Positions 5,796-32,904 of a stretch of 40,236 bases of DNA are shown one piece after another. A program made the translations under genes and the position numbers. The stretch is from Clostridiales bacterium (lineage in GTDB: Bacteria > Bacillota > Clostridia > Oscillospirales > Acutalibacteraceae), in contig DUMT01000108.1 of NCBI GenBank assembly GCA_012839705.1, forward strand, positions 1-40,236, read 5' to 3'. Within the stretch, counting starts at the first letter, position 1; each line of letters opens with the position of its first letter. Under the pieces are notes generated by a model, which saw only the letters and a list, made by a program, of their open reading frames with translations, made no database searches and was not told the DNA's origin.

Positions 5796-5806
5796 AAGGT
5801 GTGAAA

Positions 5807-15000: not shown

Positions 15001-15399
15001 CAATACCTGTTCAAGTCGGTAAAAACCGGCCTGCATGAAATAAAAGTAGAAGGTTCCGATGGAACTGATTACAGCTACATTACGTTTGAAGTTTTGACCG
15101 GTTTTGAAACACGATATGCTGGAACCAATATTCGCATTGGATACCAGGAAAGCGCTCTCATGATTAATTTCCAGATTGGAGAATTGGGCCCTGAAATCTT
15201 ATCAGTATCCAACGGAAAAGTAACACCGGATAATAACGGCGGAGACCAGCCCGGTGACTCTGACGATAAGGATGAAGATAATAACGGCGGACCCAAAACA
15301 GGTGTTAAACTGCCCTTTATTTCTATTGTGATTTTCGCAGTTTCAATTATAGCTGTTGCTATATCCCTGAAAAAATCCAAATTCCGTTATGTAGCGTGA
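12091..15399 (+). CDS. Secreted surface protein with four ~215-aa repeats and cell-wall anchor
   Basis: 1102 aa. A signal peptide (residues ~1-27, core FAALMILLNLVVPVSLLG) is followed by four repeats starting near residues 44, 255, 474 and 691. Each opens with a FK-/YR-LT-FEG-like phrase, has a central YLQFYVKN element and ends with YLDEIGLV / YFDDFGLV. The pattern suggests jelly-roll carbohydrate-binding modules (inference). Next come an Asp/Pro-rich linker (~905-925) and a carboxypeptidase-regulatory-like domain (~930-1010: SGVILGLDGKPLANAKVTL). The end is acidic linker, GPKTG, a hydrophobic helix and KKSK, like a sortase substrate with a variant LPXTG. First gene of the operon; likely a surface receptor that concentrates the glycan. 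Confidence 0.85.
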   Translation: MKKKHIGIFAALMILLNLVVPVSLLGSSESEIPEGYSATAPAGVILKAGEYYRQLTSFEGNGVKPEHIDTKRKYSDQNAVTGEKSFEITFNDGSSNAIQITEFRFGEDSSVQTKVDFTAAKYLQFYVKNTMATELHMDVIELGNGGTYAKIKRDVQVDFYNTETNTWTKITTKPAGNSNYTCIPIDGGTAGFVRIPISENIFENLTAISLSKVDNFRIWFQAPGCVGGSKAYLDEIGLVHVPGTVQEDIYEPYPAARLQSGQAFKLITSFEGNTGVGNSTSYTNNNDRWKYVNSNAATGNTAVELAYNNGNVNGHINLSIPLSGSAANWSKASYLQFYVENTDVLPMDVFYFKIISGTTEMEIKNGAKGILYYDIRQNVWMELPVTATAKYNNVHGIKVPSSAKGVVRIPLTAEVFSNFNANLLSSMTRISIYTHIGGHNAGAKAYFDDFGLVSGPATTNTTDAPWGYTRNPSQNVQLLADQYFKLLTGFEGVGIRASDINTTDSKVKLEYSADHAGSGSKSAKFTFHDGGNNTVKIISYDFESKPVSNNWSEAKYLQFYVNNPNSSPLQLGNIQYYYAGSERPLKEGVEVSFCNADTRMWSTLVTKKMANTNYTGVEIPANTRGVVRIPLNADTYNKYNQNEMSAIERVVMFVQMPGCSNPSYAYIDDLGLIAGADNKFPELTDYEETDEVQLNPGEKFKRITGFEDDSVPYVSDAPAGTIWKDTENVNSGNYSLAIKYTDGSAAGHRNFSLDTSGVNFSDWSKAKYLQFYVKNTSTRPDLQLFYIQVNRGNKMVNYGATGIKLFNKATGRWSDLEVVPNSDHYLGNTDPKVYVPTICIPAGFEGYVRIPLTNENFTNCTLSDELPNITRFAMYSLLKGFASPVTVYYDDFGLVTYEGDEAPEYVDYPVNPGDDEEPGDDLDDGQDDPYLDRETVFDLSGVILGLDGKPLANAKVTLNDEVTVTTDSKGQYLFKSVKTGLHEIKVEGSDGTDYSYITFEVLTGFETRYAGTNIRIGYQESALMINFQIGELGPEILSVSNGKVTPDNNGGDQPGDSDDKDEDNNGGPKTGVKLPFISIVIFAVSIIAVAISLKKSKFRYVA
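12220..14790 (+). repeat. Four in-frame domain repeats, ~640-660 bp each
   Basis: Protein-level repeats inside the surface protein, starting near 12220, 12855, 13511 and 14161. Common landmarks are the LT-FEG opening, YLQFYVKN/VEN/VNN, GVVRIPL/GFVRIPI and a final aspartate-rich D-GLV. The DNA copies have clearly diverged, so the duplications are old. Confidence 0.85.
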
Positions 15400-15435: not shown

Positions 15436-17049
15436 ATGAATCATAAGAATCATATGAATAAAACTCTAAGCAGACTTACTGTTGCAGCACTGTTGTTAGC
15501 ACTTTTGCTAACAACAGTTGGCTGCGGCGTTAAGGTAAATCCTGATGATAAAAATACCGATTCAACATCTTCTACCGGTACTGAGAGTACCATTGCAGAT
15601 GAAAACTCGGAGCCGTCGGATACCGAGGATACTACTACTCCGGGAGATGGCCAAAGCAACACCGATAACACATCATCGAATACCGGCGACAACAAAACCG
15701 ACGGCAAAAATAACGGGACAACCAAGAATAATAACAATAACAGCAAAACCACAACGACTTCCAAATCCGGCTTTAAAGAGCCTGTTTATGATTTGAAAGG
15801 CAGAGAAATCGTAATTGCCTGGGAACATGCTGTCCCGAATATGTCCAAAAACACCATTTTCAATGAAAGCATCAAGCTTACCGAGAAAAAGTACAACGTT
15901 AAATTCAAATTCGTACAGCAATCCGATTACTTCAAGCTTTACATGACACTTATCAACGACCATGCGGCAGGCAAAGCCACTTATGACGCAGTCAATCTGC
16001 GCGGTTATGATGTTTTCCCCAGCGCAGCCAATTCGGGTGCCATCCTTGAAGTAAACAAGTATTATGATTTTGCCAATGACCCCACATGGAACATAGACTT
16101 TTTCAAGGATCTGGGTGTGTTCAAGAAGAACAGATACGGAATCCCCTATTCACCCAACGACATGGGCAACGGCATTTGGTACAACCGTCAGCTCCTGAGG
16201 AAATTCAATGTTCCTGACCTGTGGACATATGTCAACAACGATACATGGAACTGGACAACATTCCGTGCAGTGTGCAAAAAGCTGACACAGGACACCAACG
16301 GAGACGGAAAGCCTGATTACTGGGCATTCACATCCTCCGACCCGTGGCTGGATTTCATCTTCGCAAACGGCGCTACCCTGATTTCTTCCGGCGTCAACGG
16401 TGCTCCCAAAGTATCTTTGGACAGCAAAGCGGCTCTGGAAGCCATCCAGTTTATTGCAGACCTCCACATGATTGACAACACAATCCCGGATGGCAAAGAA
16501 CTGGGTGCAATTACCGACAAGCCCTTTAACGCGATGTTCACCGGCAAAGTTGCCATGGCGACCTACCATGCCCGTTACGGTGCCGTTCTGGAGCAGATGG
16601 GTATTCCGTCATCAGACATCGGCTGGATTTATCTGCCGAAGGGCCCGTCAGCAAAGACTTACATAACAGCAACCGGAACCATGCCGGATATGTTTGTTAT
16701 CCCGCGCAATGTAAATGCTCCGAAGGAAGTTACAGCAGTAATTCAGGACCTCGCTGCATACTGGGATACATCCCGCGAAGTGAAACGCAATGTCAATGAC
16801 AAGATTGACGAGCTGTATAATGCGTTAAAAACTTCTCTTGATGCCAATGCCAAGAAGGTTCTGTATTATCAGGCTCAAAACCCGGTATTCACATTAACCA
16901 ATAACTATACCTTGTCAAATACATTGCAAAATGATTTGTGGCCATCAATTCTTAAAGGAAAATCAGTTAAATCAGCTGTTGATTCCGTTAAATCAACACT
17001 TCAAAAAGAAGTAACAGACAAATATAACGGTACTTCTGTCTCCAAATAA
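15436..17049 (+). CDS. Extracellular solute-binding lipoprotein (CUT1 type)
   Basis: 537 aa. A lipoprotein signal ends at LLTTVGC (Cys ~30). A very long, low-complexity Ser/Thr/Asn/Asp tether (residues ~31-110) holds the binding domain away from the membrane. The binding domain (~118-537) has the SBP_bac_1 look: EIVIAWEHAVPN, RYGIPYSPNDMGNGIWYNRQ, DLWTYVNNDTWNWTTF and FTGKVAMATYHARYG. Role: capture of an oligosaccharide for ABC import. ATG 15436 is preceded by AAAGGAG. It is followed by a second, different SBP, so two receptors may feed the permeases downstream. Confidence 0.9.
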   Translation: MNHKNHMNKTLSRLTVAALLLALLLTTVGCGVKVNPDDKNTDSTSSTGTESTIADENSEPSDTEDTTTPGDGQSNTDNTSSNTGDNKTDGKNNGTTKNNNNNSKTTTTSKSGFKEPVYDLKGREIVIAWEHAVPNMSKNTIFNESIKLTEKKYNVKFKFVQQSDYFKLYMTLINDHAAGKATYDAVNLRGYDVFPSAANSGAILEVNKYYDFANDPTWNIDFFKDLGVFKKNRYGIPYSPNDMGNGIWYNRQLLRKFNVPDLWTYVNNDTWNWTTFRAVCKKLTQDTNGDGKPDYWAFTSSDPWLDFIFANGATLISSGVNGAPKVSLDSKAALEAIQFIADLHMIDNTIPDGKELGAITDKPFNAMFTGKVAMATYHARYGAVLEQMGIPSSDIGWIYLPKGPSAKTYITATGTMPDMFVIPRNVNAPKEVTAVIQDLAAYWDTSREVKRNVNDKIDELYNALKTSLDANAKKVLYYQAQNPVFTLTNNYTLSNTLQNDLWPSILKGKSVKSAVDSVKSTLQKEVTDKYNGTSVSK

Positions 17050-17063
17050 CGTCCAAAACTTGG

Positions 17064-17123
17064 AAAGGATGAAGGGTTGTATGGGTTATTCTAAAGGCAT
17101 AACAGGGCAACTCTTCATCCTTT
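17064..17123 (+). other. Intergenic long stem-loop between two SBP genes
   Basis: Arms 17064-17079 and 17108-17123 pair over 16 bp with one G-U pair; the loop is 28 nt. No T-run follows, so it is not a classical terminator. Such stems behind binding-protein genes can stabilise the upstream mRNA segment and raise SBP over permease levels, as in malE-malF (known precedent; here inference). Confidence 0.55.
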
Positions 17124-17145
17124 GCCAATAGTTCAGGAGGAACGT

Positions 17146-19956
17146 ATGAATTCTAAGATAAGGTTTTGTGCCATCGCCTGCGTGATGGGTATGTTGTTAT
17201 CGCCGATGACTGCGTTGGCGCAGGATTCCGGTCTTTCAACTGACTATATCTCCTTTAAACAAGCCAATTCCGATAAAAGTTATACAGATGAAGTTATCAC
17301 ACTTTATGGGAAGCAGTTTACTTCTGAAAACAATGCAAACGCCAAAATATTAGCCGAACTCGACGGTAGGAGAGATATATTATCTACCGGTAACGAAGGA
17401 TATGTTGAATGGGAATTCTCTGTCCAGAAAGCTGGACTTTACAATATAGAGATCAGCTATTATCCCCTTGAGGGTAAAGGCAACACCATTGAAAGAAGAA
17501 TGTATATCAATGGCAAAGTGCCTTACGATGAATTAAACAGCATAACATTGCACCGTACATATAAGGATTTGTATGAAACTTTTCAAGTGGATGAAAACGG
17601 CAACCAGCTTCGCCCCGTGCAAACCGAAGCTCCCCGCTTTGAGCAGGTTGTGCTGACCGGTTCGCTGTATAATTCCAGTGAATTATTAAGTGTTCATCTT
17701 AACGAAGGTGTTAACCGTGTCCGTCTGGAGGCTGTCCGGGAACCGGTAGCGATTGAATATATCCGTTTCTTTCAAAAACAGCCTGTCAAATCCTACGATG
17801 AGGTAAGCAAAGGGTATAAATCAAAGGATGGGGCAAAGATTATCCGCATTGAGGGCGAATCAGCCACCATCAAATCGGATAATACCTTATATGCCAGCAA
17901 CGACCGTTCAAGTGTCAACAATTCCCCGAACGATATTAAGTCAATTGTTATGAATATGATCGGGGGCTATAACTGGAGAAACCCAAAACAATATATCGAA
18001 TGGGAAATTGATGTCCCTGAAACAGGGCTTTATAAGCTGGTTATCAGGGCAAAGCAGGATTATACTCCCGGAAAAAACAGCACCCGCCGGCTGCTGATTG
18101 ACGGCAATGTTCCGTTCCTTGAGGCTGAAGAAATTAATTTTCCCTATGCAGCGGGATTTCAGACAATTGAAATAGGGAAGGATAAAACCCCTTATCTGTT
18201 TGAACTGGAAAAAGGAAAGCATACAATTCGCCTTGAAGTTGTTATAGGGCAGATGGGGGATGTTTTGCAGCAGGTTTCGGAACTGATTGCCGAAATGAAC
18301 AAATTGTACCGCAGGGTTTTCATGATAACCGGTGCCTACCCGGACCCTGACCGCGACTATAACATTGAAGCCAGCATACCCGAAGCTTTGCCCACGGTAA
18401 CAGAGCTTGAAAAAAAGCTGGATAAAATCAAAAACGACTATCTAAAAATAACCGGTTCAAAAGGCACCGGTTACGCCACTTTGGAAAAAATGCAGGTACA
18501 GCTCCAAAGCTTCATTGAGGATATTGAAACCATTCCAAAGAGGCTTGAAACTTTCCGACTGAATATCAGCAATATATCCGACTGGGCTTTATCCGCTGTT
18601 GAGCAGCCTCTCCTGATTGATTATATGGAATTAGTGCCGCCGTCTGAAAATGTCGGAGCAGGAAAGGATAGCCTGTTTACAAAGTTCTGGTATTCGGTGC
18701 GTTCATTCTTTATTTCATTTGTTCTGGATTATGACACCATCAGCGAAATTAATTCCGATGAAATAAAAGAGTCCATAACACTTTGGCTCGGTTCCGGAAG
18801 GGATCAGGCACAGGCAATTAAATCAATTGTTGCAAATGATTTTACACCTAAAACCGGAATCGGCGTTAACATTCGTCTTGTAGACTTAAGTGTTCTTTTG
18901 CCGGCGGTAGCCGCGAACCGCGGACCGGATATCGCGATTACACTGGACAGCTCACTGCCGATGAACTATGCCTACCGCGGAGCGGTAAAGGCCATGAGCG
19001 ATTTTGAGGATTTTGACAAGGTTTCACAACGGTTCCTGCCTCAGATGCTCAACCAGTTCCAGTATAACGGAAAATACTATGCCCTGCCTGATAAATATAC
19101 ATTCTATTTGATGTTCTACCGCAAGGATATATTAAACGAATTCAATATATCCGTACCTAAAACCTGGGATGATATTTATACCCTGCTCCCAAAGCTGCAG
19201 AACAATTACATGAGCATCGGGCTTCCAAATATTGAGGAGAACAATATTGACCTGTTCCTGACCCTTTTGTACCAAAACAACGGCAGCGTTTATAACAAAG
19301 AAATGAACCGCAGCATGCTGGATTCCGAAGAGGCATTAGGTGCATTCAAAAAGTTTACGGATTTCTATACCAAATATAAGGTAAGCAAAAAGATTAACCA
19401 CCTGAATTGCTTCAGAACAGGTGAAACCCCCATAGTTATCATGCCGTACACCTTTTATGCACAGCTTCAGGCTGCAGCCCCTGAGATAAAGGGATTGTGG
19501 GGCTTTGGAGCGGTGCCCGGCACGTTAGCCGAGGACGGCAGCGTCAATAATACTGTTTCCGGCTCAGCTACCGGCTGTGTAATCTTCAGCAACAGCAAAA
19601 AAGAAAAAACCGCCTGGGAATTTTTGAAATGGTGGACAGATACCAATGCCCAGGTGAATTTCGGACGGGAGATTGAAAGCATCCAGGGTGCCTCAGGACG
19701 GTATCCGACTTCTAATTCCGAGGCGCTGCAAATGCTTCCGTGGTCAAATGAGGAACTCGCTGTGATTTTAAATCAGAGCAAAATTTCAAAGTCCATGCCT
19801 GAAGTACCCGGTGGATATATGACCAGCCGATACATTGTCAGCAGTTCCATGCTGGTAATCAACAACGGAATGCCGTCAAGGGAAACCATGATGGACTACA
19901 ACAAGATGATCAACGACGAAATAGCCACCATGCGCAGAAAATTCGGATTGTCTTGA
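17146..19956 (+). CDS. CBM-like / solute-binding protein fusion
   Basis: 936 aa. The signal peptide ends near MTALAQ and has no lipobox. Two beta-sandwich domains resembling CBM6/CBM35 follow: ~60-215 (GYVEWEFSVQKAGLYNIEI, then VNRVRLEAVREPVAIEYIRF) and one beginning ~235 (YIEWEIDVPETGLYKLVIR). The second domain is interrupted by a helical stretch (~375-485) before its closing strand LLIDYMEL. Residues ~541-936 are an SBP_bac_1 domain (ITLWLGSGRDQAQ, NGKYYALPDKY, YRKDILNEF, VPKTWDD, GSATGCVIFS). AGGAGG before 17146 decides the start. Probably a receptor that grips a polymer and hands a piece to permease pair A just downstream. How it is retained at the surface is not visible. Confidence 0.85.
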   Translation: MNSKIRFCAIACVMGMLLSPMTALAQDSGLSTDYISFKQANSDKSYTDEVITLYGKQFTSENNANAKILAELDGRRDILSTGNEGYVEWEFSVQKAGLYNIEISYYPLEGKGNTIERRMYINGKVPYDELNSITLHRTYKDLYETFQVDENGNQLRPVQTEAPRFEQVVLTGSLYNSSELLSVHLNEGVNRVRLEAVREPVAIEYIRFFQKQPVKSYDEVSKGYKSKDGAKIIRIEGESATIKSDNTLYASNDRSSVNNSPNDIKSIVMNMIGGYNWRNPKQYIEWEIDVPETGLYKLVIRAKQDYTPGKNSTRRLLIDGNVPFLEAEEINFPYAAGFQTIEIGKDKTPYLFELEKGKHTIRLEVVIGQMGDVLQQVSELIAEMNKLYRRVFMITGAYPDPDRDYNIEASIPEALPTVTELEKKLDKIKNDYLKITGSKGTGYATLEKMQVQLQSFIEDIETIPKRLETFRLNISNISDWALSAVEQPLLIDYMELVPPSENVGAGKDSLFTKFWYSVRSFFISFVLDYDTISEINSDEIKESITLWLGSGRDQAQAIKSIVANDFTPKTGIGVNIRLVDLSVLLPAVAANRGPDIAITLDSSLPMNYAYRGAVKAMSDFEDFDKVSQRFLPQMLNQFQYNGKYYALPDKYTFYLMFYRKDILNEFNISVPKTWDDIYTLLPKLQNNYMSIGLPNIEENNIDLFLTLLYQNNGSVYNKEMNRSMLDSEEALGAFKKFTDFYTKYKVSKKINHLNCFRTGETPIVIMPYTFYAQLQAAAPEIKGLWGFGAVPGTLAEDGSVNNTVSGSATGCVIFSNSKKEKTAWEFLKWWTDTNAQVNFGREIESIQGASGRYPTSNSEALQMLPWSNEELAVILNQSKISKSMPEVPGGYMTSRYIVSSSMLVINNGMPSRETMMDYNKMINDEIATMRRKFGLS

Positions 19957-20047
19957 ATCCAGGTTTAAACGGGATGCTTATATGAATCAATATCTTGTAT
20001 AACCATCTAGTCTGGGCAAATTTAAGCCCGAAAGGATGAACTAAAAG

Positions 20048-20953
20048 ATGAAGTCTTCAAGCAATAATCAGATACGCTACCTGAAAAGGAATTATCAGGG
20101 CTATCTGCTTATGATTCCTTACTTAGCTGTTTTCATTATTTTCACTGTGTACCCTGTTATAACGTCGGTGGTGCTCAGCTTTACTACATACAATGTTTTT
20201 CAGAGCCCGATATTTATCGGTTTTGATAATTATGTTCAGCTGTTTTTCACCGACTCGATTTTTCCCACAGCAATGCAGAATACCTTCCTTATCGCCATTG
20301 TGGTGGGCCCGTTAAGCTACTTTTTAAGCTTGTTTCTGGCCTGGATGGTAAATGAGTTTGAAAATCCGTGGCGCACACTTCTTACAGTAATATTTTATGC
20401 CCCGACCCTGTCCAACTCGGTTTTTACCATTTGGATGATTGTGTTTGACGGCGATATCTACGGATTTTTAAACAGCTTTTTGCTGAAACTCGGTTTTATC
20501 GAAGACCCAATCCAATGGCGGACGAACCCACAATATATGATGATGGTTGTTATAGTGGTTCAGTTATGGGTAAGCCTTGGAACCTCGTTTTTGACCCTGC
20601 GGGCCGGATTTAATACGGTTGACAGGCAGTATTACGAGGCGGCCGCAATTGACGGGATAAAGAACCGTTTTCAGGAGCTTTGGTTTATAACCCTTCCAAT
20701 GATGGCGCCCCACCTTATGCTCTCCGCCGTACTCGCCATCACTAACACATTTACTTCCGCAAACGTCGCAACGGTTATGACAGGTTTCCCCTCGGTAAAC
20801 TATGCAACCCACACCATCATGCACCATTTGCAGGATTACGGTACAATCCGTTATGAAAGGGGCTATGCCTCAGCGATTGCGACCGTATTGTTCCTGTTCT
20901 CGCTGCTGTTCAACAAGTTTGCGCAGAAACTAATCAGCCGCATTGGTAAGTAA
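20048..20953 (+). CDS. ABC transporter permease A1, MalF/LplB type
   Basis: 301 aa with about six membrane helices, the first at LLMIPYLAVFIIFTVYPVIT. The EAA loop is YYEAAAIDGIKNRFQELWFI followed by TLPMMAP. It lacks the extra ~60-residue loop of the DUF5696-linked permeases at 730 and 26381, so it belongs to a different permease line. Preceded by AAAGGATGA. Its gene overlaps or abuts its partner, and both follow the fusion SBP, the expected order for a CUT1 importer. Confidence 0.93.
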   Translation: MKSSSNNQIRYLKRNYQGYLLMIPYLAVFIIFTVYPVITSVVLSFTTYNVFQSPIFIGFDNYVQLFFTDSIFPTAMQNTFLIAIVVGPLSYFLSLFLAWMVNEFENPWRTLLTVIFYAPTLSNSVFTIWMIVFDGDIYGFLNSFLLKLGFIEDPIQWRTNPQYMMMVVIVVQLWVSLGTSFLTLRAGFNTVDRQYYEAAAIDGIKNRFQELWFITLPMMAPHLMLSAVLAITNTFTSANVATVMTGFPSVNYATHTIMHHLQDYGTIRYERGYASAIATVLFLFSLLFNKFAQKLISRIGK

Positions 20954-20975
20954 ATTTGCAAGAGGAATGAAGCAA

Positions 20976-21863
20976 ATGCAAAAAACAAAAACTTTAAAAG
21001 CATTGCGGCGCGTGAAGAAATCAAGAAAACTAAACCGCAGCCGTGCCGGAAATATCTTAATGTTTCTTTTTCTTATAGGCTTTGCCGTATACAGCGCCCT
21101 GCCGCTGGTGCTGATTGTACTTCAATCTATAAAGCCTATCAATGAGTTGTTTGTCTATCCGCCTAAATTCTATGTAATTAACCCCACGCTGAATAATTTC
21201 AAGCAATTGTCGTCCCTTATGTCCACAACATGGATACCGTTTTCACGCTACGTATTCAACAGCCTGTTTATTTCTGTGATTGGTACGGTTGGACATATTG
21301 TTGTGGCTTCAATGTGCGCGTTTCCTTTGGCAAAACTGAATTTAAAAGGCGGAAACTTCATATTTCAGGTGATTGTTCTGTCCCTAATGTTCGCGCCTTC
21401 CGTATCTGATATTGTAAACTATCAGACGATGTCAAACCTTGGTTTGCTGGACACTTATCTGGCGATACTGGTACCCGCTTTGGGGTCAAGCCTGGGACTT
21501 TACATTATGAAGCAGTTTATGTCCCAAATCCCTGATTCGCTGATAGAATCTGCGAGCATTGACGGTGCAAGTACATTCCGTATTTTCTGGAAGATTATTA
21601 TGCCAAACGTAAAACCTGCATGGCTTACTTTGGCTATCTTCTCATTCCAGAACCTGTGGAACAACGCCAACACTACATACATTTACAGCGAACCTCTTAA
21701 ATCCCTCCCGTATGCGTTGAATCAGATTGTCAGCGGCGGAATAATCCGTGCAGGTGCTGGTGCCGCTGTCAGCGTAATTTTGTTGATAGTTCCCATGGCA
21801 CTGTTTATTTTGACACAAAGCAGGATTATTGAAACAATGTCAACTTCGGGTATGAAAGAGTGA
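20976..21863 (+). CDS. ABC transporter permease A2, MalG type
   Basis: 295 aa. A basic N-terminus (KALRRVKKSRKLNRS) precedes helix 1. The EAA loop is ESASIDGASTFRIFWKIIMP. The frame extends back to TTG 20943 inside the previous gene, and ATG 20967 is also possible. AGAGGA at 20961-20966 has the best spacing to ATG 20976, which I use. It pairs with the permease at 20048 to form the membrane channel of importer A. The NHL/TPR membrane protein follows within 26 bp, suggesting one functional unit. Confidence 0.92.
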   Translation: MQKTKTLKALRRVKKSRKLNRSRAGNILMFLFLIGFAVYSALPLVLIVLQSIKPINELFVYPPKFYVINPTLNNFKQLSSLMSTTWIPFSRYVFNSLFISVIGTVGHIVVASMCAFPLAKLNLKGGNFIFQVIVLSLMFAPSVSDIVNYQTMSNLGLLDTYLAILVPALGSSLGLYIMKQFMSQIPDSLIESASIDGASTFRIFWKIIMPNVKPAWLTLAIFSFQNLWNNANTTYIYSEPLKSLPYALNQIVSGGIIRAGAGAAVSVILLIVPMALFILTQSRIIETMSTSGMKE

Positions 21864-21888
21864 GTTTTGTGTGAAAAGGAAAAAGCTT

Positions 21889-23367
21889 ATGAAAAAGATT
21901 TTAGCGTCGGCTGTGTTATGCCTGCTATTTTGCAGCTGGGCTTTCGGTGTATCGGCATTTGTTCCATACGATACATATACATACTCCACCAGAACCGGAA
22001 GTGTGGAAGCCCTGTATTCTCCAACAGCATATTATCCTGACTTTGTCATTGACAAATCTCTGATAGGGATACCGCTTGTTACCCCGACTTGCATCTGCTT
22101 TGACAAAGAGGGGAATATGTATATCACCGATAACTCCGCCAACCGGCTGATAGTGTTGAATCCTGATTTTTCATTGAAGGCAAATCTGGATACGTTTGAA
22201 ACCGAAGATGGAATGTTTGAATTTCTCGGTGGTCCGGAAGGTGTTTTTGTTACCGATGATATGGAAATATACCTCTGCGATACTAAGCAAAAGCGGATTC
22301 TGGTTTTGGATCAGAAGTACAACATTATCCGCAAATACGAAAACATTAAACCCGTAGGGGTTGAAAATGATGAGGATTATTCGTTCATGCCCACCAGGAT
22401 TGTGGTGGACAGCTCCAAAAATATGTATGTACTGGTTCAGAACGAATATCAGGGCATCATGCAGATTGATCAGAACGGAAAGTTTATATCCTTTCTTGGA
22501 AGCAATAAGGTTACCTATGACCCTATAACCAAGCTGTGGAAAAAAATCATGACCAAGGAACAGAAAAAGCAGCTGATACAGTTCCTTCCGGTAGAATACA
22601 CAAATTTAACCATGGACCATGAAGGTTTCATCTACACCGCATCAAAGGCGGATAACAGCTCCCCGATTAAACGACTGAACCTTGCCGGTAAGGATGTTTT
22701 AATCCGCAACGGTTATGTGGACATGGTAGGCGATGTTAAGACAAGCAAAACCACAGAAAAAGTTGAATCCCTGATTGCAGGTGTAGATAGTGACGAGAAC
22801 GGGCAGGTATATGCCCTGGATTCAAACGGGGGGCGGATATTCGTTTACAACAGCGAAGGTTTCCTGCTTTATGCTTTCGGAAGTATAGGCAATCAAATTG
22901 GAAGTTTCATCACCCCCTCGGATATAAAGGTAAATAACGGCCTGATTTTTGTGGCTGACCAGGGTACTGCAAGGATTACGGTTTTCCGCAGAACCGAGTA
23001 TGCAGATTTGGTGACAAAGGCAAACGACCTTTATTATAAAGGTCAGTACGAAGAAAGTGTAAATCTTTGGAAACAGGTAATCGAGCGCAATGCCAATTTC
23101 GAGCTGGCTTATGCTCAGATCGGCAAGGTTTATTTGAGGGAAAACCGATATAAGGAAGCCATGGAATATTTCAAACTTGGAAATTTCCGCGGAGATAAAA
23201 TAACCAACACCACCGGTTACAACAAGGCTTTTATTGAATACCGCCGGATTCAGGCATCCAAACTGCTCGGCCCCTTTGTAATTGTTATTGTAGTTCTTTA
23301 CATAGGATACTCCTTTTACAAATCCAGAAGAAAGCGAACCGGTAAGGCTGCCAATTTGCAAAGATAG
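21889..23367 (+). CDS. NHL-repeat / TPR protein with C-terminal membrane anchor
   Basis: 492 aa. A signal peptide or N-terminal helix (ILASAVLCLLFCSWAFG) precedes a beta-propeller of NHL-like repeats, seen as GNMYITDNSANRLIVLNPD, MEIYLCDTKQKRILVLDQK, GQVYALDSNGGRIFVYN and LIFVADQGTARITVFRR. A TPR pair (~372-435: ANDLYYKGQYEESVNLWKQV, then LAYAQIGKVYLRENRYKEAM) follows. The end is a transmembrane helix (FVIVIVVLYIGYSFY) and KSRRKR. Propeller and TPR should face outward and act as a binding or assembly scaffold (inference). AAGGA favours ATG 21889 over GTG 21871. It sits between importer A and the DUF5696/importer B genes. Confidence 0.85.
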   Translation: MKKILASAVLCLLFCSWAFGVSAFVPYDTYTYSTRTGSVEALYSPTAYYPDFVIDKSLIGIPLVTPTCICFDKEGNMYITDNSANRLIVLNPDFSLKANLDTFETEDGMFEFLGGPEGVFVTDDMEIYLCDTKQKRILVLDQKYNIIRKYENIKPVGVENDEDYSFMPTRIVVDSSKNMYVLVQNEYQGIMQIDQNGKFISFLGSNKVTYDPITKLWKKIMTKEQKKQLIQFLPVEYTNLTMDHEGFIYTASKADNSSPIKRLNLAGKDVLIRNGYVDMVGDVKTSKTTEKVESLIAGVDSDENGQVYALDSNGGRIFVYNSEGFLLYAFGSIGNQIGSFITPSDIKVNNGLIFVADQGTARITVFRRTEYADLVTKANDLYYKGQYEESVNLWKQVIERNANFELAYAQIGKVYLRENRYKEAMEYFKLGNFRGDKITNTTGYNKAFIEYRRIQASKLLGPFVIVIVVLYIGYSFYKSRRKRTGKAANLQR

Positions 23368-23395
23368 GGTCAGCGTTTTTGAGAGGTTTGAGGTT

Positions 23396-24013
23396 ATGAA
23401 ACAAAAAATTAAATTTGCATTTCATATTTTATTCCATCCCTTTGACGGGTTTTGGGACATGAAGCATGAACGAAAAGGCGATTTGTATGTATCCCTTGGG
23501 ATTATGCTGATGGTAATTGTATCCAATATATTTTCCCGTCAGGCTACCGCCTTCCTTTTCAATCCCCAGAAATACGCAAACCTTGATGTTGTATTTGAAA
23601 TCAACAAGGTATTGATACTGTTCTTATTGTTCTGCGTATCCAACTGGTCAATCACCACTCTAATGGGGGGAGAAGGAACTTTTAAAGATATTGTAATGAC
23701 TACAGGATATGCCTGCCTGCCGCTTGTAATTATTCCTATCCCTGTTGCCATTATTTCGAATCTGTCTTCATATTACGAACAGGTGTATCTGACAACGGCA
23801 AATTCGGTTGCAACCCTGTGGTTTTTCGCCCTGCTTTTTGCAGGAATTATGACCATCCATAATTATTCCATCGGGAAGATGCTTGGTACCATTGTAATTA
23901 CACTTGTTGCTATGGCGGCACTGCTGTTTATCTGCCTGCTGTTTTTCAACCTTTTCAGCCAGCTCATCGGCTTTGTTTATTCCATATATAAAGAGATAGC
24001 ATTAAGGACCTAG
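23396..24013 (+). CDS. Yip1-family membrane protein
   Basis: 205 aa. The N-terminus AFHILFHPFDGFWDMKHERKG is the usual start of bacterial Yip1-domain proteins. About five hydrophobic helices follow (SLGIMLMVIVSNI, VLILFLLFCVSNWSITTLMGG, LVIIPIPVAIIS, LWFFALLFAGIM, IVITLVAMAALLFICLLFF). The helix 2-3 phrase GGEGTFKDIVMTTGYACLP is characteristic. Bacterial members have no settled function. It lies 28 bp after the NHL/TPR gene and just before the DUF5696 gene. Its TAG stop lies in an 18-bp tandem duplication. Confidence 0.85.
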   Translation: MKQKIKFAFHILFHPFDGFWDMKHERKGDLYVSLGIMLMVIVSNIFSRQATAFLFNPQKYANLDVVFEINKVLILFLLFCVSNWSITTLMGGEGTFKDIVMTTGYACLPLVIIPIPVAIISNLSSYYEQVYLTTANSVATLWFFALLFAGIMTIHNYSIGKMLGTIVITLVAMAALLFICLLFFNLFSQLIGFVYSIYKEIALRT

Positions 24014-24041
24014 TCCTTATTACGGACCTAGTCCTTATTAC
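24006..24041 (+). repeat. 18-bp perfect tandem duplication over a stop codon
   Basis: GGACCTAGTCCTTATTAC occurs at 24006-24023 and again at 24024-24041. The first copy contains the TAG stop of the Yip1-like gene. Each unit holds a GGAC-CTA-GTCC mini-hairpin, extended to AAGGAC/GTCCTT around the first copy (24004-24018). Confidence 0.95.
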
Positions 24042-24068
24042 GTATTTTCCGGAAAGGCAGGAGATTTT

Positions 24069-26384
24069 ATGAAGCATATAAGAGCAGTGCTCTGTTGCTT
24101 TTTGTGTGGAATCATAATTCTGTCAATGTCCAGCTGCGGCATTAGCGCGCCGGAGATTGACACAAAACATTATAAAACAAATACTTCGGTGAACTTTACA
24201 AAATATAAGGACGCAAATTTTGAACCTGTACCTGTCAACGAGGTTGACCAGCAGTATTTGAATGATTACGAATTCGTCTGCGAAAATAAATTCCTTGCCC
24301 TTTATCTTCAGCGGGAAACCGCTGCGGTGGCAGTAGCGGACAAAAGAACCGGCGATGTTTGGTATACCAACCATCCCGAAATTAAGGATGACAGTGAAAT
24401 AAGCGAGGATACAAAACAGCTGTTTTATTCGCAGCTTTATGTAGAATACCTCGATAATCCGAACTTCAAGCAGATAGACAGCTATTCCACAAGCGTAAAG
24501 GATAATATGTTTTCAATCGAAACATCTGATAAAGGAATTACTGTTACCTATCGCTTCAAGGATACAAGAACAGCCAACATTCGCAAAAATCGCGAATATC
24601 TGTTTGAAATCACCCTGCAGTATACCCTGCAGAATGAATCCATGATTGTTACCCTGCCCAGTAAAGGGATGTCTTATGACAGCGATATGCCGCCGCTGGC
24701 TATCCATGTATTGCCCCACTTCGGCGGAGCACCCTCAAAGGAGGACGGATACCTGTTTATCCCCGACGGCAGCGGTGCTTTGATTGAATTCAACAGCGAT
24801 ACTTACTCCGTTTCCAGCTATACAGGCTCTGTCTACGGGCCTGACGAAACCAACGAGGTTAAAACCAAGTCCTCATATGCCTTGCCGGTATATATGCCGG
24901 TCTTTGGCGTGAAACAGGCATCCAAAAGCTTTCTTGCCATTATCGAGGATAGTGCGGCATTTGCAAACATAAGGGCAAACCGTGCAGGTCCATACAGCTC
25001 GTATAACGAGGTATATTCCAGCTTCAATGTCCATGCATACCAGAATATTTCAATCGGTGGAATGTCCACAGCCACCAAACTGATTGGCATACAGGATTCC
25101 CCATACCAGGGTGATATACAAATCCGGTACGCTTTCCTGGAACCCGACAGTACCTATGTCGATATGGCGGATTACTACCGCAGCTATATGCTGGATAAGA
25201 ATAATGCAGAAAAAATCAAAACTGCTGAATCAGTACCAATGCATGTGGAATTTATCGGCGCAATTGACAAGACAAAATCAACCCTGGGCTTCCAGTATAA
25301 CGGAATTGAAACCCTTACTACTGCAACCCAGGCTTCAGAAATCCTTCAGGATTTGAAAAATTCAGGCATCAAAAACATCTCAGCAAACTACTCTGGTTGG
25401 TTTAATGGTGGTCTGAAACAGCAGCTTGCCACCAGAATAAAAGTTGAAAAGGCCATCGGTGGGAAAAAGGGCCTTACAACCCTTATGGATTTCGCCAATA
25501 AATCCGACATTCCGCTTTACTTTTCAATCAACCTGCTGACCACTCCGCCGCGTTCCAAAGGTTTCAACAAGTTCACAATGTCAGTCAGGCAGATTGACCA
25601 GAGGGACGCAAAGAAGTATACATACGACTATGTTACAAAAGAAGGAATCAGTTACTCCAGCATCCTGAATCCGGGTGTGCTGCAGCCCATACTCGACCGG
25701 TTCGGGAAAAAGGCATCAAAAATGGGTATAACAAGGCTGGATATTCAGGATATTGGAAGCAATGTATTTGCGGATTATACCGAGGGAAAGATAATTGACC
25801 GTGAAACCACCGTCAACATTTACAGGGAACTTTTAAAGAAGCAAAGCGGCGAATATCAGTCGCTTATGACACATGGCGGCTTTGCATATACCTTTCCTTA
25901 TGTGGATATTGTGGTAGACGCTCCTTTTTCGGACAGCGGTTTTGATATGGTAGACAGGCCCGTACCGTTTTATCAGATTGTCTATCATGGTTATGTGCAG
26001 TATTCGGGTTCTCCTTTGAATCTTTCCTATGATTTTACCGCCGATATGTTAAGGCTGATTGAATACGGCGGCTCGCCATACTATCAGGTAATGGCAGGCA
26101 AAAGCTCATCCATAATGGGCACCGATTACAGCTACCTGTGCAGCAATACCTACGATAACTGGAAGGATAAGATAAAAGAAACGTATTCAAAAATCAACCA
26201 GGTTCTGGCTCCTTCCATCGGTCAGACAATCGTTGATCATAAAAAGATTCAAGACGATGTGTTTATGACCAAATACGAAAACGGATACAAGGTATATGTA
26301 AATTATTCGGATAAAGATGTTTCTGCAGATGGACAGACCATCCCTGCCCGTAATTTTTCAGCCAGTTGGGAGGTGCAACCTTGA
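24069..26384 (+). CDS. DUF5696 lipoprotein, putative extracellular glycosidase-like
   Basis: 771 aa. Lipoprotein signal with lipobox LSMSSC (Cys ~23). Residues ~60-370 look like a large beta-sandwich (YLFIPDGSGALIEFNSD, YALPVYMPVFGVK). Residues ~385-680 look like a TIM barrel (GIKNISANYSGWFNGG, IPLYFSINLL, GITRLDIQDIGSN, YVDIVVDAPFSDSGF). This sandwich-plus-barrel order recalls secreted glycoside hydrolases, but no activity is established for DUF5696. The acidic residues DIQDIG and VVDAPFSD are candidates for function. The stop overlaps the start of the next permease (TTGA), so production is coupled. A second copy ends at 707. Confidence 0.85.
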   Translation: MKHIRAVLCCFLCGIIILSMSSCGISAPEIDTKHYKTNTSVNFTKYKDANFEPVPVNEVDQQYLNDYEFVCENKFLALYLQRETAAVAVADKRTGDVWYTNHPEIKDDSEISEDTKQLFYSQLYVEYLDNPNFKQIDSYSTSVKDNMFSIETSDKGITVTYRFKDTRTANIRKNREYLFEITLQYTLQNESMIVTLPSKGMSYDSDMPPLAIHVLPHFGGAPSKEDGYLFIPDGSGALIEFNSDTYSVSSYTGSVYGPDETNEVKTKSSYALPVYMPVFGVKQASKSFLAIIEDSAAFANIRANRAGPYSSYNEVYSSFNVHAYQNISIGGMSTATKLIGIQDSPYQGDIQIRYAFLEPDSTYVDMADYYRSYMLDKNNAEKIKTAESVPMHVEFIGAIDKTKSTLGFQYNGIETLTTATQASEILQDLKNSGIKNISANYSGWFNGGLKQQLATRIKVEKAIGGKKGLTTLMDFANKSDIPLYFSINLLTTPPRSKGFNKFTMSVRQIDQRDAKKYTYDYVTKEGISYSSILNPGVLQPILDRFGKKASKMGITRLDIQDIGSNVFADYTEGKIIDRETTVNIYRELLKKQSGEYQSLMTHGGFAYTFPYVDIVVDAPFSDSGFDMVDRPVPFYQIVYHGYVQYSGSPLNLSYDFTADMLRLIEYGGSPYYQVMAGKSSSIMGTDYSYLCSNTYDNWKDKIKETYSKINQVLAPSIGQTIVDHKKIQDDVFMTKYENGYKVYVNYSDKDVSADGQTIPARNFSASWEVQP

Positions 26385-27280
26385 AACGCAGACTAACCCT
26401 TACGCAAAAAAAGGCATTGTTGGGATATGTCTATACGGCGCCATGGATTATCGGATTTATTTTCCTTTTCATTTCGCCGATTATCAAAACTGCTATTTAC
26501 AGTTTTCACTCCTTTGACAAAGTAACCCTCGAACCAACCTTTATCGGATGGACGAATTTCCGCTATGCCTTTACGGGCGACGCCAAGTTTCCGCAGGTGC
26601 TGGTGGAATCCCTTTCAAATCTGACTGAGGTTCCCCTTATCCTGATATTCTCTTATTTCGTAGCTATTCTGCTCCGGAAAGATTTTCCAGGCAGCGCCTT
26701 TGTCAAGATGATATTCTTCCTGACTGTAATTTTGTCATCAGACCTGTTTTTGCGGATGCAGTCCTCGGTTGCATCGGTTAACAACGCACAGATTAATGCA
26801 TCCATGCAGGAAACCCAGGAGCTTTTTACAGCCTTGCAGGCGGTGGATTTGAGCAAGTACTTTTATTCCATTGGCGTACCCAATGAATGGTTTGATTTTA
26901 TCAACAATGCCATCAGCAATATATTCTTCATAATGATCAGATCCGGTGTTCAGATTTTTATTTTCCTTGCTGCCCTTCATAATATCCCGTCATCAATGTA
27001 TGAGGCGGCCAGCATGGAAGGCTCAACGGCCTGGGAAACTTTTTGGCTTATTACATTCCCCATGACAAGCCCGATAATACTCATCAACTGCATTTATACA
27101 ATCATTGACTCCTTCGGGTCGTATTTGAATCCTGTGGTTACTTACATCAATTCAATCGCCTTCAAGCAGTTTGAATTCGGATATTCATCGGCTATGTCCT
27201 GGATTTATTTCTTATGTATCGCAGTAATTATTGCAATTATTTATCTGTTATTCCGGAAAAAGATTTTCTACCAGACCTAA
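26381..27280 (+). CDS. ABC transporter permease B1, MalF/LplB type with extra loop
   Basis: 299 aa. The start is TTG at 26381, four bases overlapping the DUF5696 stop, with GGGAGGTG at 26368-26375; an upstream TTG at 26366 lacks a site. EAA loop: YEAASMEGSTAWETFWLITF. Between the middle helices is a polar insertion of ~60 residues (SSVASVNNAQINASMQETQE), also in the permease at 730 but not at 20048. RSGVQIFIFLAAL precedes the EAA loop in both. The insertion could face outside and contact the DUF5696 partner (inference). Confidence 0.92.
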   Translation: MKRRLTLTQKKALLGYVYTAPWIIGFIFLFISPIIKTAIYSFHSFDKVTLEPTFIGWTNFRYAFTGDAKFPQVLVESLSNLTEVPLILIFSYFVAILLRKDFPGSAFVKMIFFLTVILSSDLFLRMQSSVASVNNAQINASMQETQELFTALQAVDLSKYFYSIGVPNEWFDFINNAISNIFFIMIRSGVQIFIFLAALHNIPSSMYEAASMEGSTAWETFWLITFPMTSPIILINCIYTIIDSFGSYLNPVVTYINSIAFKQFEFGYSSAMSWIYFLCIAVIIAIIYLLFRKKIFYQT

Positions 27281-27314
27281 TGGAATAAACGGATAAACGC
27301 AGGAGGGATAACAG

Positions 27315-28295
27315 ATGCCTAGCATATCAACCCAATTAAATGACAGAACAAAATCCAAAATTAAAAAAACTGCGAAAAAAGCTGCGATGGGTACCATCAA
27401 AGCGGTTTTCCTCATCGGTTTTTGTTTTGTAATAATCTATCCGGTGCTCATGATGATTTCCAAAGCGTTTATGGAGCGCAGGGATATATTTGACAATACT
27501 GTCATTTTGGTTTTGAAGCATTTTACTCTTCAAAACTTTGAAATTGCAATAATGCTGACAGATTTTTGGAATACCCTTGTAAATACTTTAACCCTGTCCG
27601 CTATTGTAACAGTACTTGAAACCGTATCCTGCCTGGTTATAGCCTATGGCCTGGCACGGTTTGAGTTTAAACTCAGGGGTTTAATCCTGGGACTTGTGGT
27701 TTTTACAATCATCGTTCCACCCCAGTTGATTTTGACACCAATGTATGTTCAGTTCAGCAATTATAACCCCTTTGGAATTATGAAACTGATTTTTGGGGGT
27801 TCCCTGAATCTGATTGACACATATATTCCTTTTGGACTTCTTGCGGCTACAGGCATGGGAGTAAAAAACGGGTTGTTCATACTGATTTTTTTCCAGTTGT
27901 TCAGGAATATGCCTAAGGAACTGGAGGAGGCAGCCCATATTGACGGCGCCGGTTCCTTTGCCACATTTATCAAAATCATGGTGCCCAACGCGGTTACATC
28001 CATTGTTACTGTAGTGCTGTTCGGGTTCATGTGGCAGTACAACGATATAAATTACTCATCTTCATTCCTGAGAAACAAAAACGTTTTTTCAAGCGTGTAC
28101 TACAATCTGGAACGCTTTACGCTGGAAGTATATGATTTGTTAGGCGTCTCTCAATATGACATGACGATGACAATGTATATACCTTTGGTCAAAAGCGCAG
28201 GCGTGCTCCTGTTTTTAGCGCCGTTGCTTCTTGTGTTCCTGTTCTGTCAGCGCTACTTTGTGGAAAGCATTGAGCGCGTGGGTATAGTTGGATAA
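27315..28295 (+). CDS. ABC transporter permease B2, MalG type
   Basis: 326 aa, starting behind GCAGGAGGG. A Lys-rich N-terminus (NDRTKSKIKKTAKKAA) precedes the first helix. EAA loop: EEAAHIDGAGSFATFIKIMV. It is closest in the window to the permease at 1657, sharing IAYGLARFEFKLRG-like, GMGVKNGL and the terminal CQRYFVESIERVG. It completes the DUF5696-permease-permease set. No ATP-binding subunit is found next to it or elsewhere in the window. Confidence 0.93.
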   Translation: MPSISTQLNDRTKSKIKKTAKKAAMGTIKAVFLIGFCFVIIYPVLMMISKAFMERRDIFDNTVILVLKHFTLQNFEIAIMLTDFWNTLVNTLTLSAIVTVLETVSCLVIAYGLARFEFKLRGLILGLVVFTIIVPPQLILTPMYVQFSNYNPFGIMKLIFGGSLNLIDTYIPFGLLAATGMGVKNGLFILIFFQLFRNMPKELEEAAHIDGAGSFATFIKIMVPNAVTSIVTVVLFGFMWQYNDINYSSSFLRNKNVFSSVYYNLERFTLEVYDLLGVSQYDMTMTMYIPLVKSAGVLLFLAPLLLVFLFCQRYFVESIERVGIVG

Positions 28296-28319: not shown

Positions 28320-29783
28320 ATGCAACCGAAAGAATTTTTTATCAAGGATTTTGGAGCGCTGGGTGACGGCGTTACCAACGATGGATTCGCAATATGCGAG
28401 GCAGTCCGTGCAGCTATTGAATATGGCAAACCTGCTGTTATTAATTTTGACAAGGCGGTTTACCGTATTGCGGATATTCCTCAGGAAAACAACCGGCGCT
28501 GCCTGTTTTCCCTTAACAATGTCAGGGATTTATCTATCAAAGGAAACGGCGCTACCCTGTTGTTCAAAGGGGCTATCAAGCTGATGTCCATGGAAAACTG
28601 CACAAACTGCAGCCTGGACGGTTTTATAATCGACTATTCGCCGAAGCCTTTTGTTCTGGGAATAGTAACCGATTTTAGCGTTGAGGATTGCTATATCGAT
28701 TTTGATACCAACGGCGATTTGGGGTTTGAATCTGATGTATATTTGCCAAAGCCGCCATGTTTCGGCTTCCCGAACAGGAGTGATATCCGATACCACTACT
28801 CCTTTGTGCGTTTTGAGCGGGTTGCTGAAAACAAATACAGGCTTAATATCCACGAAAAGTCCAGGGACCGCATTGAAAAGGTGAAAGTAGGGGATGAGTT
28901 CATCCTGCCCTATATCCCCTGCAGCCATTACGCCGGCGGAGCCTGCACCATTTATAACAACGATGGTTTTACCATCTCAAATCTCCGGTTCTACAGCCAT
29001 CCGGAATTCGGGTTTGATGTCCGCTGCAACCGCGGCAATATGCTGTTCGACAGGATTGTCCTAAAGCAGGAAGAGGGCAGCCCGTTCCATCTGATTTCCT
29101 GGCGCGACTGCTTCCATGTAAAGGATAATGTATCCCCGGTTATCTGGGACAACTGCTATATTGGGCCTATCGGTGATGACGCATATAACTTGTCCTGTGT
29201 ACATTTGGATGTAACAAATGTATCGGGCGACGGAAAAACAATTGAATGTCTGCCGGCGGAAAAAGGCAAAACACGGGATATTGAAATCGGCGACGAATTT
29301 ATAGCCTACGATTTGCAAACCGGCAAGTATATCGGGGAGGGCCATGTCGCCCGCGTTTATGACCGGGATGATTGCGTACAGTTTGATTCTGATGTCGAAC
29401 TTGAGAAATTGGGTAAAGGGATGCAGATATCATTCTACAAATACGCAAATCCGGGGTTTGTAGTTAAAAACTCCTACATTGAAGGTACGGTTCGCGCCCG
29501 CAGCATGGGAACCTTTGAAAACTGCGAATTCAATGTTTTCTGGGTGTATGTGGAAAATGAGCATTTTGTAGAGGGGCCTATCCCGAAAAACCTTACCTTC
29601 AAAAACTGCACATTTACCACACCGTATGATGATTCAGCAAAAATATTCCGTGTAGGAACCATTGGCAAGAACGGGTTAAAGAACTGTGAATATAAATGCA
29701 GAAACATCCGCCTTGAAAACTGCAAATTCCTCAAAGGCCAGATTGAGTTGGAAGACGGAAACGAGCTAATCATAACAGATTGA
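28320..29783 (+). CDS. Cytoplasmic right-handed beta-helix protein, GH110-like motif
   Basis: 487 aa, no signal peptide, so probably intracellular. It starts with the pectate-lyase-3-type capping motif DFGALGDGVTNDG. Beta-helix coils are seen as -NC-F- turns (LENCKF, FKNCTF, FENCEF). Two beta-barrel-like inserts interrupt the helix (~105-200 around VKVGDEFILPY; ~295-360 around EIGDEFIAYDLQTGKYIGEG). The conserved core SWRDCFHVKDN and CYIGPIGDDAYNLS (GDDA at 285-288) resembles the GDDA-N active-site element of GH110 alpha-galactosidases, which also carry two barrels on a beta-helix (family knowledge; not proven here). It is a tandem paralogue of the next gene, which is secreted. Confidence 0.75.
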   Translation: MQPKEFFIKDFGALGDGVTNDGFAICEAVRAAIEYGKPAVINFDKAVYRIADIPQENNRRCLFSLNNVRDLSIKGNGATLLFKGAIKLMSMENCTNCSLDGFIIDYSPKPFVLGIVTDFSVEDCYIDFDTNGDLGFESDVYLPKPPCFGFPNRSDIRYHYSFVRFERVAENKYRLNIHEKSRDRIEKVKVGDEFILPYIPCSHYAGGACTIYNNDGFTISNLRFYSHPEFGFDVRCNRGNMLFDRIVLKQEEGSPFHLISWRDCFHVKDNVSPVIWDNCYIGPIGDDAYNLSCVHLDVTNVSGDGKTIECLPAEKGKTRDIEIGDEFIAYDLQTGKYIGEGHVARVYDRDDCVQFDSDVELEKLGKGMQISFYKYANPGFVVKNSYIEGTVRARSMGTFENCEFNVFWVYVENEHFVEGPIPKNLTFKNCTFTTPYDDSAKIFRVGTIGKNGLKNCEYKCRNIRLENCKFLKGQIELEDGNELIITD

Positions 29784-29800
29784 AAGAAGGTTTGAATTAT

Positions 29801-31608: not shown

Positions 31609-32904
31609 ATGGCCTTTAGCGGCAATTGTTATTATATTGACTTGAAAGGGGATGATGCAAACATTGGAACCAGCCCTGATGCCCCTTTCCGTTCCTTTGC
31701 ACCTCTGAAGAACATAAAACTTGGACCAAATGACAAGGTGTTTTTAAAACGAGGTTGCACATGGAATGAGGAGCTTTTCCTCGAAGGTCAGGGTACACCC
31801 GATGGTTTTATCGAGGTAACAGCCTATGGAGAAGGGGACAGGCCGAAAATCCAGCGCAGTGGTCATATATCCGAACGTTGCATCCGCATTAATAATGCAT
31901 CCTACTTTAAAATGAGCAGTATTGAGGTATGCAATGCGGGAGCGGGTATAGTCCTGTTCTATGACCACAGCTATCACAATAAATCTGTTTATCTCGATGA
32001 TATAGTAGCACACGACTTTTTTGGGATTTATCGTGCAAGCGGAGAGAGCAGCTCAATCGAGGAATGGAAAAGCTACCGGAGCCCTGACCGTGTGGGGTTC
32101 TCTCTGGGGATTTGCGTAACCGGCAACGATTCCACTCCCTACAACGATGAGTGTGTTTTATCGGATTTCAGGGTTACAAATACCACAATTTATAAAACCG
32201 GCGGCGGTATAGGCCTGGATTGGTGCGACCACAGATGCTGCGACGGAAGTATGGCAAACCACAATAAATTCCAGGATGTTTTGTTTGAAAACTTACATCT
32301 GTACGATAACGATGTTCCCGACGTTTCCCTTACCAGCATGTTTTTGCAGTGTGTTACCAACGCTATTGTTAAGAATGTGGTTATTGACAAAGGGGCGGGC
32401 GGCGCTCCCTGGGGAACTGCTGCCATCCACCTGCAGCTTGCTAAGAATGTGCATTTGGAAAATGTGACAATATTAAACATGCCCCATACTGGAGTTAGTG
32501 ACCAGTGTGGCATTGATTTTGAGGCGGATGTGGATAACTGCAGCATCATAAACTGCACCTTCATGAACAACGCAGGGGCTGCCATTGAGTTTTTGGCGAA
32601 CTTCGACTGCAGCCCCGACGCCGTCAGCCGCAACATACTTATCAAAGGCTGCAAGTTTTTCAACAACAATTATATGAAGATGTATACCAACCCCAGCCAA
32701 ATCCTGGTGCAGAACTGGCAGAAGGACAACCGTCCAACCGGATGGATTGTTGACTGCGAATATTTAAATCCGGAAGAAGTAGTATTCCTGGGCGGGGACG
32801 GGTTTACAGACGGATTCGTTACACACAACAACACCGAGATAACGAGGGATATATATGAAGAAAATGCATATCATCTCCAACTCCCATCTAGATCGAGAGC
32901 ATAG
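31609..32904 (+). CDS. Right-handed beta-helix repeat protein, cytoplasmic
   Basis: 431 aa, no signal peptide. It begins with YYIDLKGDDANIGTSPDAPF, the start of many DUF1565/beta-helix polysaccharide-active proteins. Helical coils appear throughout: YFKMSSIEVCNAGAGIVLF, NKFQDVLFENLHLYDN, VHLENVTILNMPHTG, NCSIINCTFMNNAGAAIEF and ILIKGCKFFNNN. The pattern suits a polysaccharide lyase or glycosidase, but I see no diagnostic catalytic set. GAAAGGCGG favours ATG 31609; ATG 31579, overlapping the previous stop, is an alternative. Its last 50 bp overlap the start of the GH38-like gene in another frame. Confidence 0.75.
   Translation: MAFSGNCYYIDLKGDDANIGTSPDAPFRSFAPLKNIKLGPNDKVFLKRGCTWNEELFLEGQGTPDGFIEVTAYGEGDRPKIQRSGHISERCIRINNASYFKMSSIEVCNAGAGIVLFYDHSYHNKSVYLDDIVAHDFFGIYRASGESSSIEEWKSYRSPDRVGFSLGICVTGNDSTPYNDECVLSDFRVTNTTIYKTGGGIGLDWCDHRCCDGSMANHNKFQDVLFENLHLYDNDVPDVSLTSMFLQCVTNAIVKNVVIDKGAGGAPWGTAAIHLQLAKNVHLENVTILNMPHTGVSDQCGIDFEADVDNCSIINCTFMNNAGAAIEFLANFDCSPDAVSRNILIKGCKFFNNNYMKMYTNPSQILVQNWQKDNRPTGWIVDCEYLNPEEVVFLGGDGFTDGFVTHNNTEITRDIYEENAYHLQLPSRSRA

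Follow-up and report, generated by a model that had tools for sequence, protein, structure and literature searches.

Gene content of the locus

The window analysed here is the whole of contig C74 (DUMT01000108.1; 40,236 nucleotides (nt)), part of the 1.9 Mb draft genome of a Clostridiales bacterium assembled in 160 contigs. Between positions 15436 and 28295 it carries nine open reading frames (ORFs), all on the + strand, which encode two solute-binding proteins (SBP1 and SBP2), two permease pairs (A1/A2 and B1/B2), a protein with an NHL propeller and tetratricopeptide repeats (NHL-TPR), a Yip1-domain protein and a DUF5696 protein, in the order SBP1, SBP2, A1, A2, NHL-TPR, Yip1, DUF5696, B1, B2. 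An earlier note on this DNA had described an uninterrupted series with short or overlapping gaps, and this is what the ORFs show (gaps of 72, 91, -11, 7, 28, 55, -4 and 34 nt in cassette order). The TTGA overlap it had read between DUF5696 and B1 is real, B1 starting with TTG at 26381 across the DUF5696 stop; its seven genes become nine once both binding proteins are counted.

Pfam backs each of the nine assignments. SBP1 (15436–17049) is a lipoprotein sugar-binding protein (SBP_bac_1; lipobox TVGC), and SBP2 (17122–19956) combines two beta-sandwiches resembling carbohydrate-binding modules (CBMs), a four-helix insert and a C-terminal SBP domain (SBP_bac_8, weak CBM_35, AlphaFold2 (AF2) model and profile search); both are sugar-type binding proteins as expected of a CUT1 importer. 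The permeases A1 (20048–20953), A2 (20943–21863), B1 (26381–27280) and B2 (27315–28295) are of CUT1 type in each set, with a BPD_transp_1 domain and an EAA loop kept in all four. Between the two pairs lie NHL-TPR (21871–23367), with NHL and TPR Pfam domains and a C-terminal membrane helix; the multi-span membrane protein Yip1 (23396–24013), a member of the Yip1 family (PF04893, E 9e-16, 58.6 bits against a gathering threshold of 28.6); and the lipoprotein DUF5696 (24069–26384; PF18952, E 2e-185), predicted to adopt a fold of glycoside hydrolase family 129 (GH129) made of a beta-sandwich, a TIM barrel and a C-terminal beta domain. At the left window end, the 3' end of a second DUF5696-B1-B2 cassette (63–2586, + strand) is cut by the contig edge, leaving the C-terminal part of DUF5696, a B1-like gene (670–1644) and a B2-like gene (1657–2586). 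A promoter and terminator scan returned 57 promoter-like sequences against 41.8 ± 6.6 expected and was not used as evidence.

Conservation of the cassette

Neighbourhood searches anchored on DUF5696 provided two sets of loci, one of about 80 whole-genome neighbourhoods and one of 80 named loci, the latter being the 80 best matches and hence biased toward the window's own sequence. DUF5696 was matched in 24 of 40 relatives, with up to 20 matches per genome. The main order SBP2-A1-A2-NHL-(Yip1)-DUF5696-B1-B2 is common to both sets, SBP1 standing either before SBP2 or after B2. It recurs at more than 100 other loci, which places the adjacency far beyond chance, and the named loci come from Paenibacillus, Cohnella, Bacillus, Halalkalibacter, Caldicoprobacter, Mahella and uncultured Clostridia. 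Where enough flanking sequence was available, NHL, Yip1, B1 and B2 all surround DUF5696 at 71 of 71 named and 50 of 55 whole-genome loci; A1, A2 and SBP2 are present in addition at 69 and 44 of these, respectively. On a Butyrivibrio and a Paenibacillus plasmid, the annotation lists the identical order gene by gene, the whole set being nameless.

Among 398 Bacillota genomes, a strong DUF5696 match was found in 37, the NHL protein in 38 and SBP2 in 39. All 37 genomes, from 16 families, also carry NHL and SBP2 (Fisher test for DUF5696 with SBP2, 4e-50, relatedness ignored). Three genomes depart from this pattern, two with SBP2 alone and one with NHL alone. The contigs concerned measure 3.8, 4.3 and 8.5 kb, and in the two genomes with SBP2 the remaining genes may simply have been cut off by contig ends. 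Cassette parts co-occur even where they are unlinked, and accidental adjacency is ruled out by the recurring order together with the co-occurrence. Genes that are rarely neighbours, or DUF5696, Yip1 and NHL genes mostly found without permeases, would have spoken against the earlier proposal; with 71 of 71 loci and 37 of 37 genomes, the opposite was observed. These results support the conclusion that the genes form one conserved system, a real cassette.

Two extra genes lie between B1 and B2 at six loci (L051, L053, L121, L129, L133 and L139), mostly of about 330–370 and 480–530 amino acids (aa) and larger in L051. The 24,576-aa open frame found around one fragment of DUF5696 (G079:C5:103998-104681) probably reflects a run of N in the assembly.

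The earlier note had placed the NHL-TPR protein and the Yip1 membrane protein in one machine, and natural fusions strongly support that the two are joined. The two are a single ORF at 49 of the 123 loci holding both (~40%), with 30 fusions among 55 whole-genome loci and 19 among 71 named loci. Fused ORFs are mostly 670–915 aa long, with the Yip1 part C-terminal, and in the window's own genome all five Yip1 matches lie within cassettes. The fusions are the clearest sign that propeller, TPR and Yip1 membrane domain act as one unit.

Fold and possible role of DUF5696

The AF2 model of DUF5696 (predicted local distance difference test (pLDDT) 88, predicted template modelling score (pTM) 0.90) resembles the GH129 glycosidases NagBb (5wzn; Z 31.0, root-mean-square deviation 3.9 over 573 residues) and ZgGH129 (5opq; Z 30.6), the next structure group lying near Z 20. 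A profile search also backs the GH129 fold, and a viral structure library held nothing close. DUF5696 has the whole three-domain fold in common with NagBb and ZgGH129/DagB (5opq, 8rzk), at 12–15% identity to GH129 structures. In contrast to these enzymes, it is encoded in a transporter cassette, and in the Pfam scan it matched PF18952 only, with no match to PF11308 (a genome search with PF11308 was matchless throughout, controls included, and is uninformative). What had been listed as a lipoprotein of unknown function can now be described as having the GH129 fold, but probably not the catalytic pair of that family; the lipobox is present in the window, but in only 38 of 118 relatives.

For the second catalytic residue of NagBb we take E478. 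GH129-type proteins of the same phylum keep the motifs YLDVF and SEE 43–44 residues apart, which is the spacing between D435 and E478. D435 is a catalytic residue of NagBb, and the activity of ZgGH129 needs D486, E517, E531 and D202 (PMC5698469). When DUF5696 was aligned with GH129-type proteins (hhalign probability 99%, 9% identity, without superposition of active sites), no conserved acid was found at the positions aligned to D435 (558, S in 36/63; 560 and 561 mixed) or to E478 (602 and 603 mixed; n=63), so that at this 9% identity the NagBb pair is not conserved. Other residues are conserved, namely D233 (61/63), D569 (52/63), E665 (60/63) and R578. The lack of a conserved catalytic pair favours a glycan-binding pseudo-enzyme, which we consider roughly twice as likely as an active enzyme using other residues. 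GH129-type proteins with an apparently intact catalytic motif are encoded at four loci (L267, L268, L269 and L027) in genomes related to that of the window.

The alternative that fares best is that DUF5696 is an active surface glycosidase, cutting captured glycan at the membrane so that each importer takes one product. On this reading the presence of two importers side by side would make sense, and it is consistent with the whole-length GH129 fold, with the three conserved acids and with the catalytic acids of ZgGH129, which differ in part from those of NagBb and indicate that unusual residues can work (PMC5698469). The positions aligned to D435 and E478 argue against it, since same-phylum GH129-type proteins keep YLDVF and SEE where DUF5696 has no conserved acid. 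We regard an active glycosidase as a possibility to be taken seriously, and a binding role for DUF5696 as the preferred reading.

Gene surroundings, cargo and ATPase

Of 20 genes sampled downstream of cassettes, 12 are linked to carbohydrates (GH9, GH10, GH26, GH30, GH32, GH38, a melibiase C-terminal domain and a ricin lectin); the others encode SecA, an ABC (ATP-binding cassette) exporter, a transglutaminase, a HEAT protein or a regulator, or have no assignment. In the window, the cassette is followed by beta-helix proteins, a GH38 (32855–35626) and a GH20 (37496–39100), and a GntR-type regulator is encoded at 10595–11722. Regulator, ABC importer and glycan-degrading enzymes thus lie side by side, as in Gram-positive polysaccharide utilisation loci, and glycans are the likely cargo. 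Such loci, as generally described, have one importer, and the nine-gene plan falls outside that definition.

These surroundings bear on a second alternative, in which importers and accessory genes share a transcript because they serve one glycan, and their products never touch; the locus would then be a Gram-positive polysaccharide locus of the usual kind, with a long operon. The glycosidase and regulator genes around the cassette would fit. However, order and accessory proteins are nearly invariant while the enzymes change, NHL and Yip1 fuse, and the parts co-occur even when unlinked. We find this explanation rather unlikely.

The window's genome encodes one OB_MalK-type ATPase, which adjoins no permease gene; some 4 kb from it, at the contig end, there is a B2-like gene. 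This lone MsmX-like ATPase carries the multitask residues K43, D77, R104, E110 and K154, the last four of which are conserved among ATPases able to replace MsmX (PMC7658222). It is probably this single orphan ATPase that powers both importers. The arrangement is similar to that of CUT1 importers with a shared ATPase (MsmX in B. subtilis, MsmK in S. pneumoniae; PMC7658222) in having an SBP with two EAA-loop permeases, no ATPase gene of its own in the window and a lone MsmX-like ATPase elsewhere in the genome. Unlike these importers, the cassette has two complete receptor–permease sets with NHL-TPR, Yip1 and DUF5696 between them, and one of its receptors, SBP2, bears CBM-like domains and a helical insert. 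On a Paenibacillus cellulosilyticus plasmid (L266), a ugpC ATPase gene belonging to the cassette lies immediately before SBP2, and LLM-class flavin oxidoreductases, several in number, accompany the cassette, which hints that its cargo is not an ordinary glycan.

Two receptors and two permease modules

The two receptors differ in structure and rate of change. SBP1, whose nearest solved sequence is an arabino-oligosaccharide-binding protein, is the most variable gene of the cassette, and evolution is slower in A1, A2 and SBP2 than in SBP1 and B. The CBM-SBP fusion proposed earlier stands, with details added: the AF2 model of SBP2 (pLDDT 86) has two beta-sandwiches, a helical insert (~378–493) and an SBP domain. 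The latter is similar to proteins that bind sugars, a beta-1,2-glucooligosaccharide binder among them, and in the profile search the second sandwich resembles a CBM35-containing enzyme. The window SBP2 has no lipobox. Among its relatives an N-terminal hydrophobic stretch is general and a lipobox rare; SBP2 is therefore probably not a lipoprotein, but a secreted protein or one held through its N-terminus.

Two modules emerge from the comparison of loci: a core (NHL-Yip1, DUF5696, B1, B2 and usually SBP1) and an A module (SBP2, A1, A2). Some cores have no adjoining A1/A2 (e.g. L091, L097, L254), SBP2-A1-A2 stands after B2 in L246, and stand-alone SBP2-A1-A2 modules occur without core genes (L234, L238, L241, L242, L244, L248). 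Five stand-alone-module SBP2s, all from one family, show 66–85% identity to each other and 53–56% to cassette SBP2s. SBP2 was found in all 12 genomes picked because they or their kin have cores lacking A genes upstream, and genome G278 combines a single core lacking A genes with a single stand-alone A module. Judging from presence alone, the A module would be able to work in trans.

The distance matrices of eight genes correlate at 0.86–0.94 across 118 complete cassettes, indicating that the cassette is inherited largely as a unit. Partial correlations, with the other genes controlled for, were obtained in 87 dereplicated cassettes; bootstraps resample related loci and give optimistic intervals. 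On the A side, values were 0.41 for SBP2-A1, 0.45 for SBP2-A2 and 0.24 for A1-A2; on the B side, 0.28 for SBP1-B1, 0.29 for SBP1-B2 and 0.17 for B1-B2. Positive values were also obtained for NHL-DUF (0.33), NHL-Yip1 (0.22), SBP2-DUF (0.23) and SBP2-B1 (0.20), whereas A x B permease values ranged from -0.12 to 0.05 with intervals spanning zero (pooled set). In the subset where SBP1 adjoins SBP2, SBP1-SBP2 was -0.26 and SBP1 with the distant B2 was 0.39, so adjacency alone is insufficient to explain the pairing. These values suggest that SBP2 pairs with A1/A2, and SBP1 mainly with B1/B2.

The earlier note had left the choice between two channels and one hetero-assembly open. That A and B permeases pair into a single unusual channel served by two receptors would agree with the four permeases being kept together in most cassettes and with the strong correlation of all distance matrices, but two importers are the better fit, given A x B correlations close to zero and the finding of the A module on its own; we consider the hetero-channel improbable. 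Least probable of all is an A module acting as glycan sensor or gate for the core: slower evolution of A1, A2 and SBP2 and the prospect of one A module serving several cores would suit it, but the A1/A2 EAA loops are intact and the SBP domain has the usual fold of sugar-binding proteins.

A model with two importers and a shared assembly

On balance, we think that the genes encode a conserved glycan-uptake cassette in which two CUT1-type ABC importers share an extracytoplasmic and membrane assembly. Importer A would consist of the CBM-armed receptor SBP2 with A1/A2, and importer B of SBP1 with B1/B2, both driven by the one orphan MsmX-like ATPase. NHL-TPR with Yip1 as its membrane continuation, together with the GH129-fold DUF5696, would keep receptors and incoming glycan near the permeases, DUF5696 probably binding and presenting the glycan instead of cleaving it by the GH129 mechanism. 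Of the composite surface machine suggested earlier, the single conserved system stands. The analysis establishes its gene content and order, the co-occurrence of its parts, the NHL-Yip1 fusions, the division into two modules, the fold of DUF5696 and a lone ATPase with the multitask residues; from these we infer physical assembly, receptor–permease pairing, glycan cargo, ATPase coupling and the role of DUF5696.

Several points weigh against this model. Solitary DUF5696 genes occur in four relatives of the window (L112, L113, L114, L117), outside the 398-genome sample; their scanned neighbours are unrelated and encode a pyrophosphatase, a sigma factor, an amidase and an acetyltransferase, and the NHL protein had no match in these genomes, so DUF5696 can also exist without the cassette. 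The pairing signal is unclean in the SBP1-upstream subset (SBP1-A2 0.36, SBP2-B2 0.33). Conserved order could reflect co-regulation without physical contact, and the whole model is drawn from sequence and predicted structure. An ancestral or different role is possible for the solitary DUF5696 genes beside housekeeping genes.

More tentatively, the cassette may be a hub-and-spoke machine of Bacillota, in which a constant importer, SBP2-A1-A2 with its CBM-armed receptor, would connect physically with cores of varying specificity, either in cis or in trans. Each core would contribute a second importer, a scaffold of NHL-TPR-Yip1 and a pseudo-enzyme with the GH129 fold. Such a machine would be a counterpart in role, built of unrelated parts, of the SusC/SusD loci of Bacteroidota, which combine a constant uptake core, many copies per genome and variable enzymes beside it. 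The likeness is in this outline only: the cassette is found in single-membrane bacteria and has ABC permeases instead of a TonB-dependent channel. No common parts were seen, and the Pfam matches of the scanned window proteins include no TonB-dependent SusC channel or SusD lipoprotein family.

Within the literature searched, we found neither DUF5696 nor a paper on this nine-gene set, and combinations of YIP1, NHL, permease and SBP gave nothing relevant; a paper on a xanthan locus of Paenibacillus that encodes two binding proteins does not mention any NHL, YIP1 or DUF gene in its text (PMC12827396). To that extent the cassette is apparently undescribed as a system. Public annotation labels its parts singly (SBP, permease, NHL repeat protein, YIP1 family protein, DUF5696), which makes a system with up to ~20 copies per genome invisible as such. 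A joint machine, if true, would assign a function to DUF5696 and to a group of Yip1 proteins in bacteria, would predict that uptake via one ABC importer depends on a second, and would supply marker genes for locating glycan-uptake loci in Paenibacillus, Cohnella, Clostridia and metagenomes from gut or rumen.

Other genes in the window

Upstream of the cassette, the gene at 12091–15399 stops 36 nt short of SBP1 and may belong to the same operon. Its product is a surface protein of 1102 aa in which similar domains are repeated; it also has a CarboxypepD_reg domain and, near the C-terminus, a PKTG-like motif followed by a membrane helix. An 814-aa protein (5801–8245) without Pfam match at E 0.01 adjoins an arabinose/fucose-isomerase-like gene (4245–5795). 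Downstream, the two neighbouring beta-helix proteins (28320–31582) have 219 identities in 489 aligned columns, and only one of them has a lipoprotein-type N-terminus.

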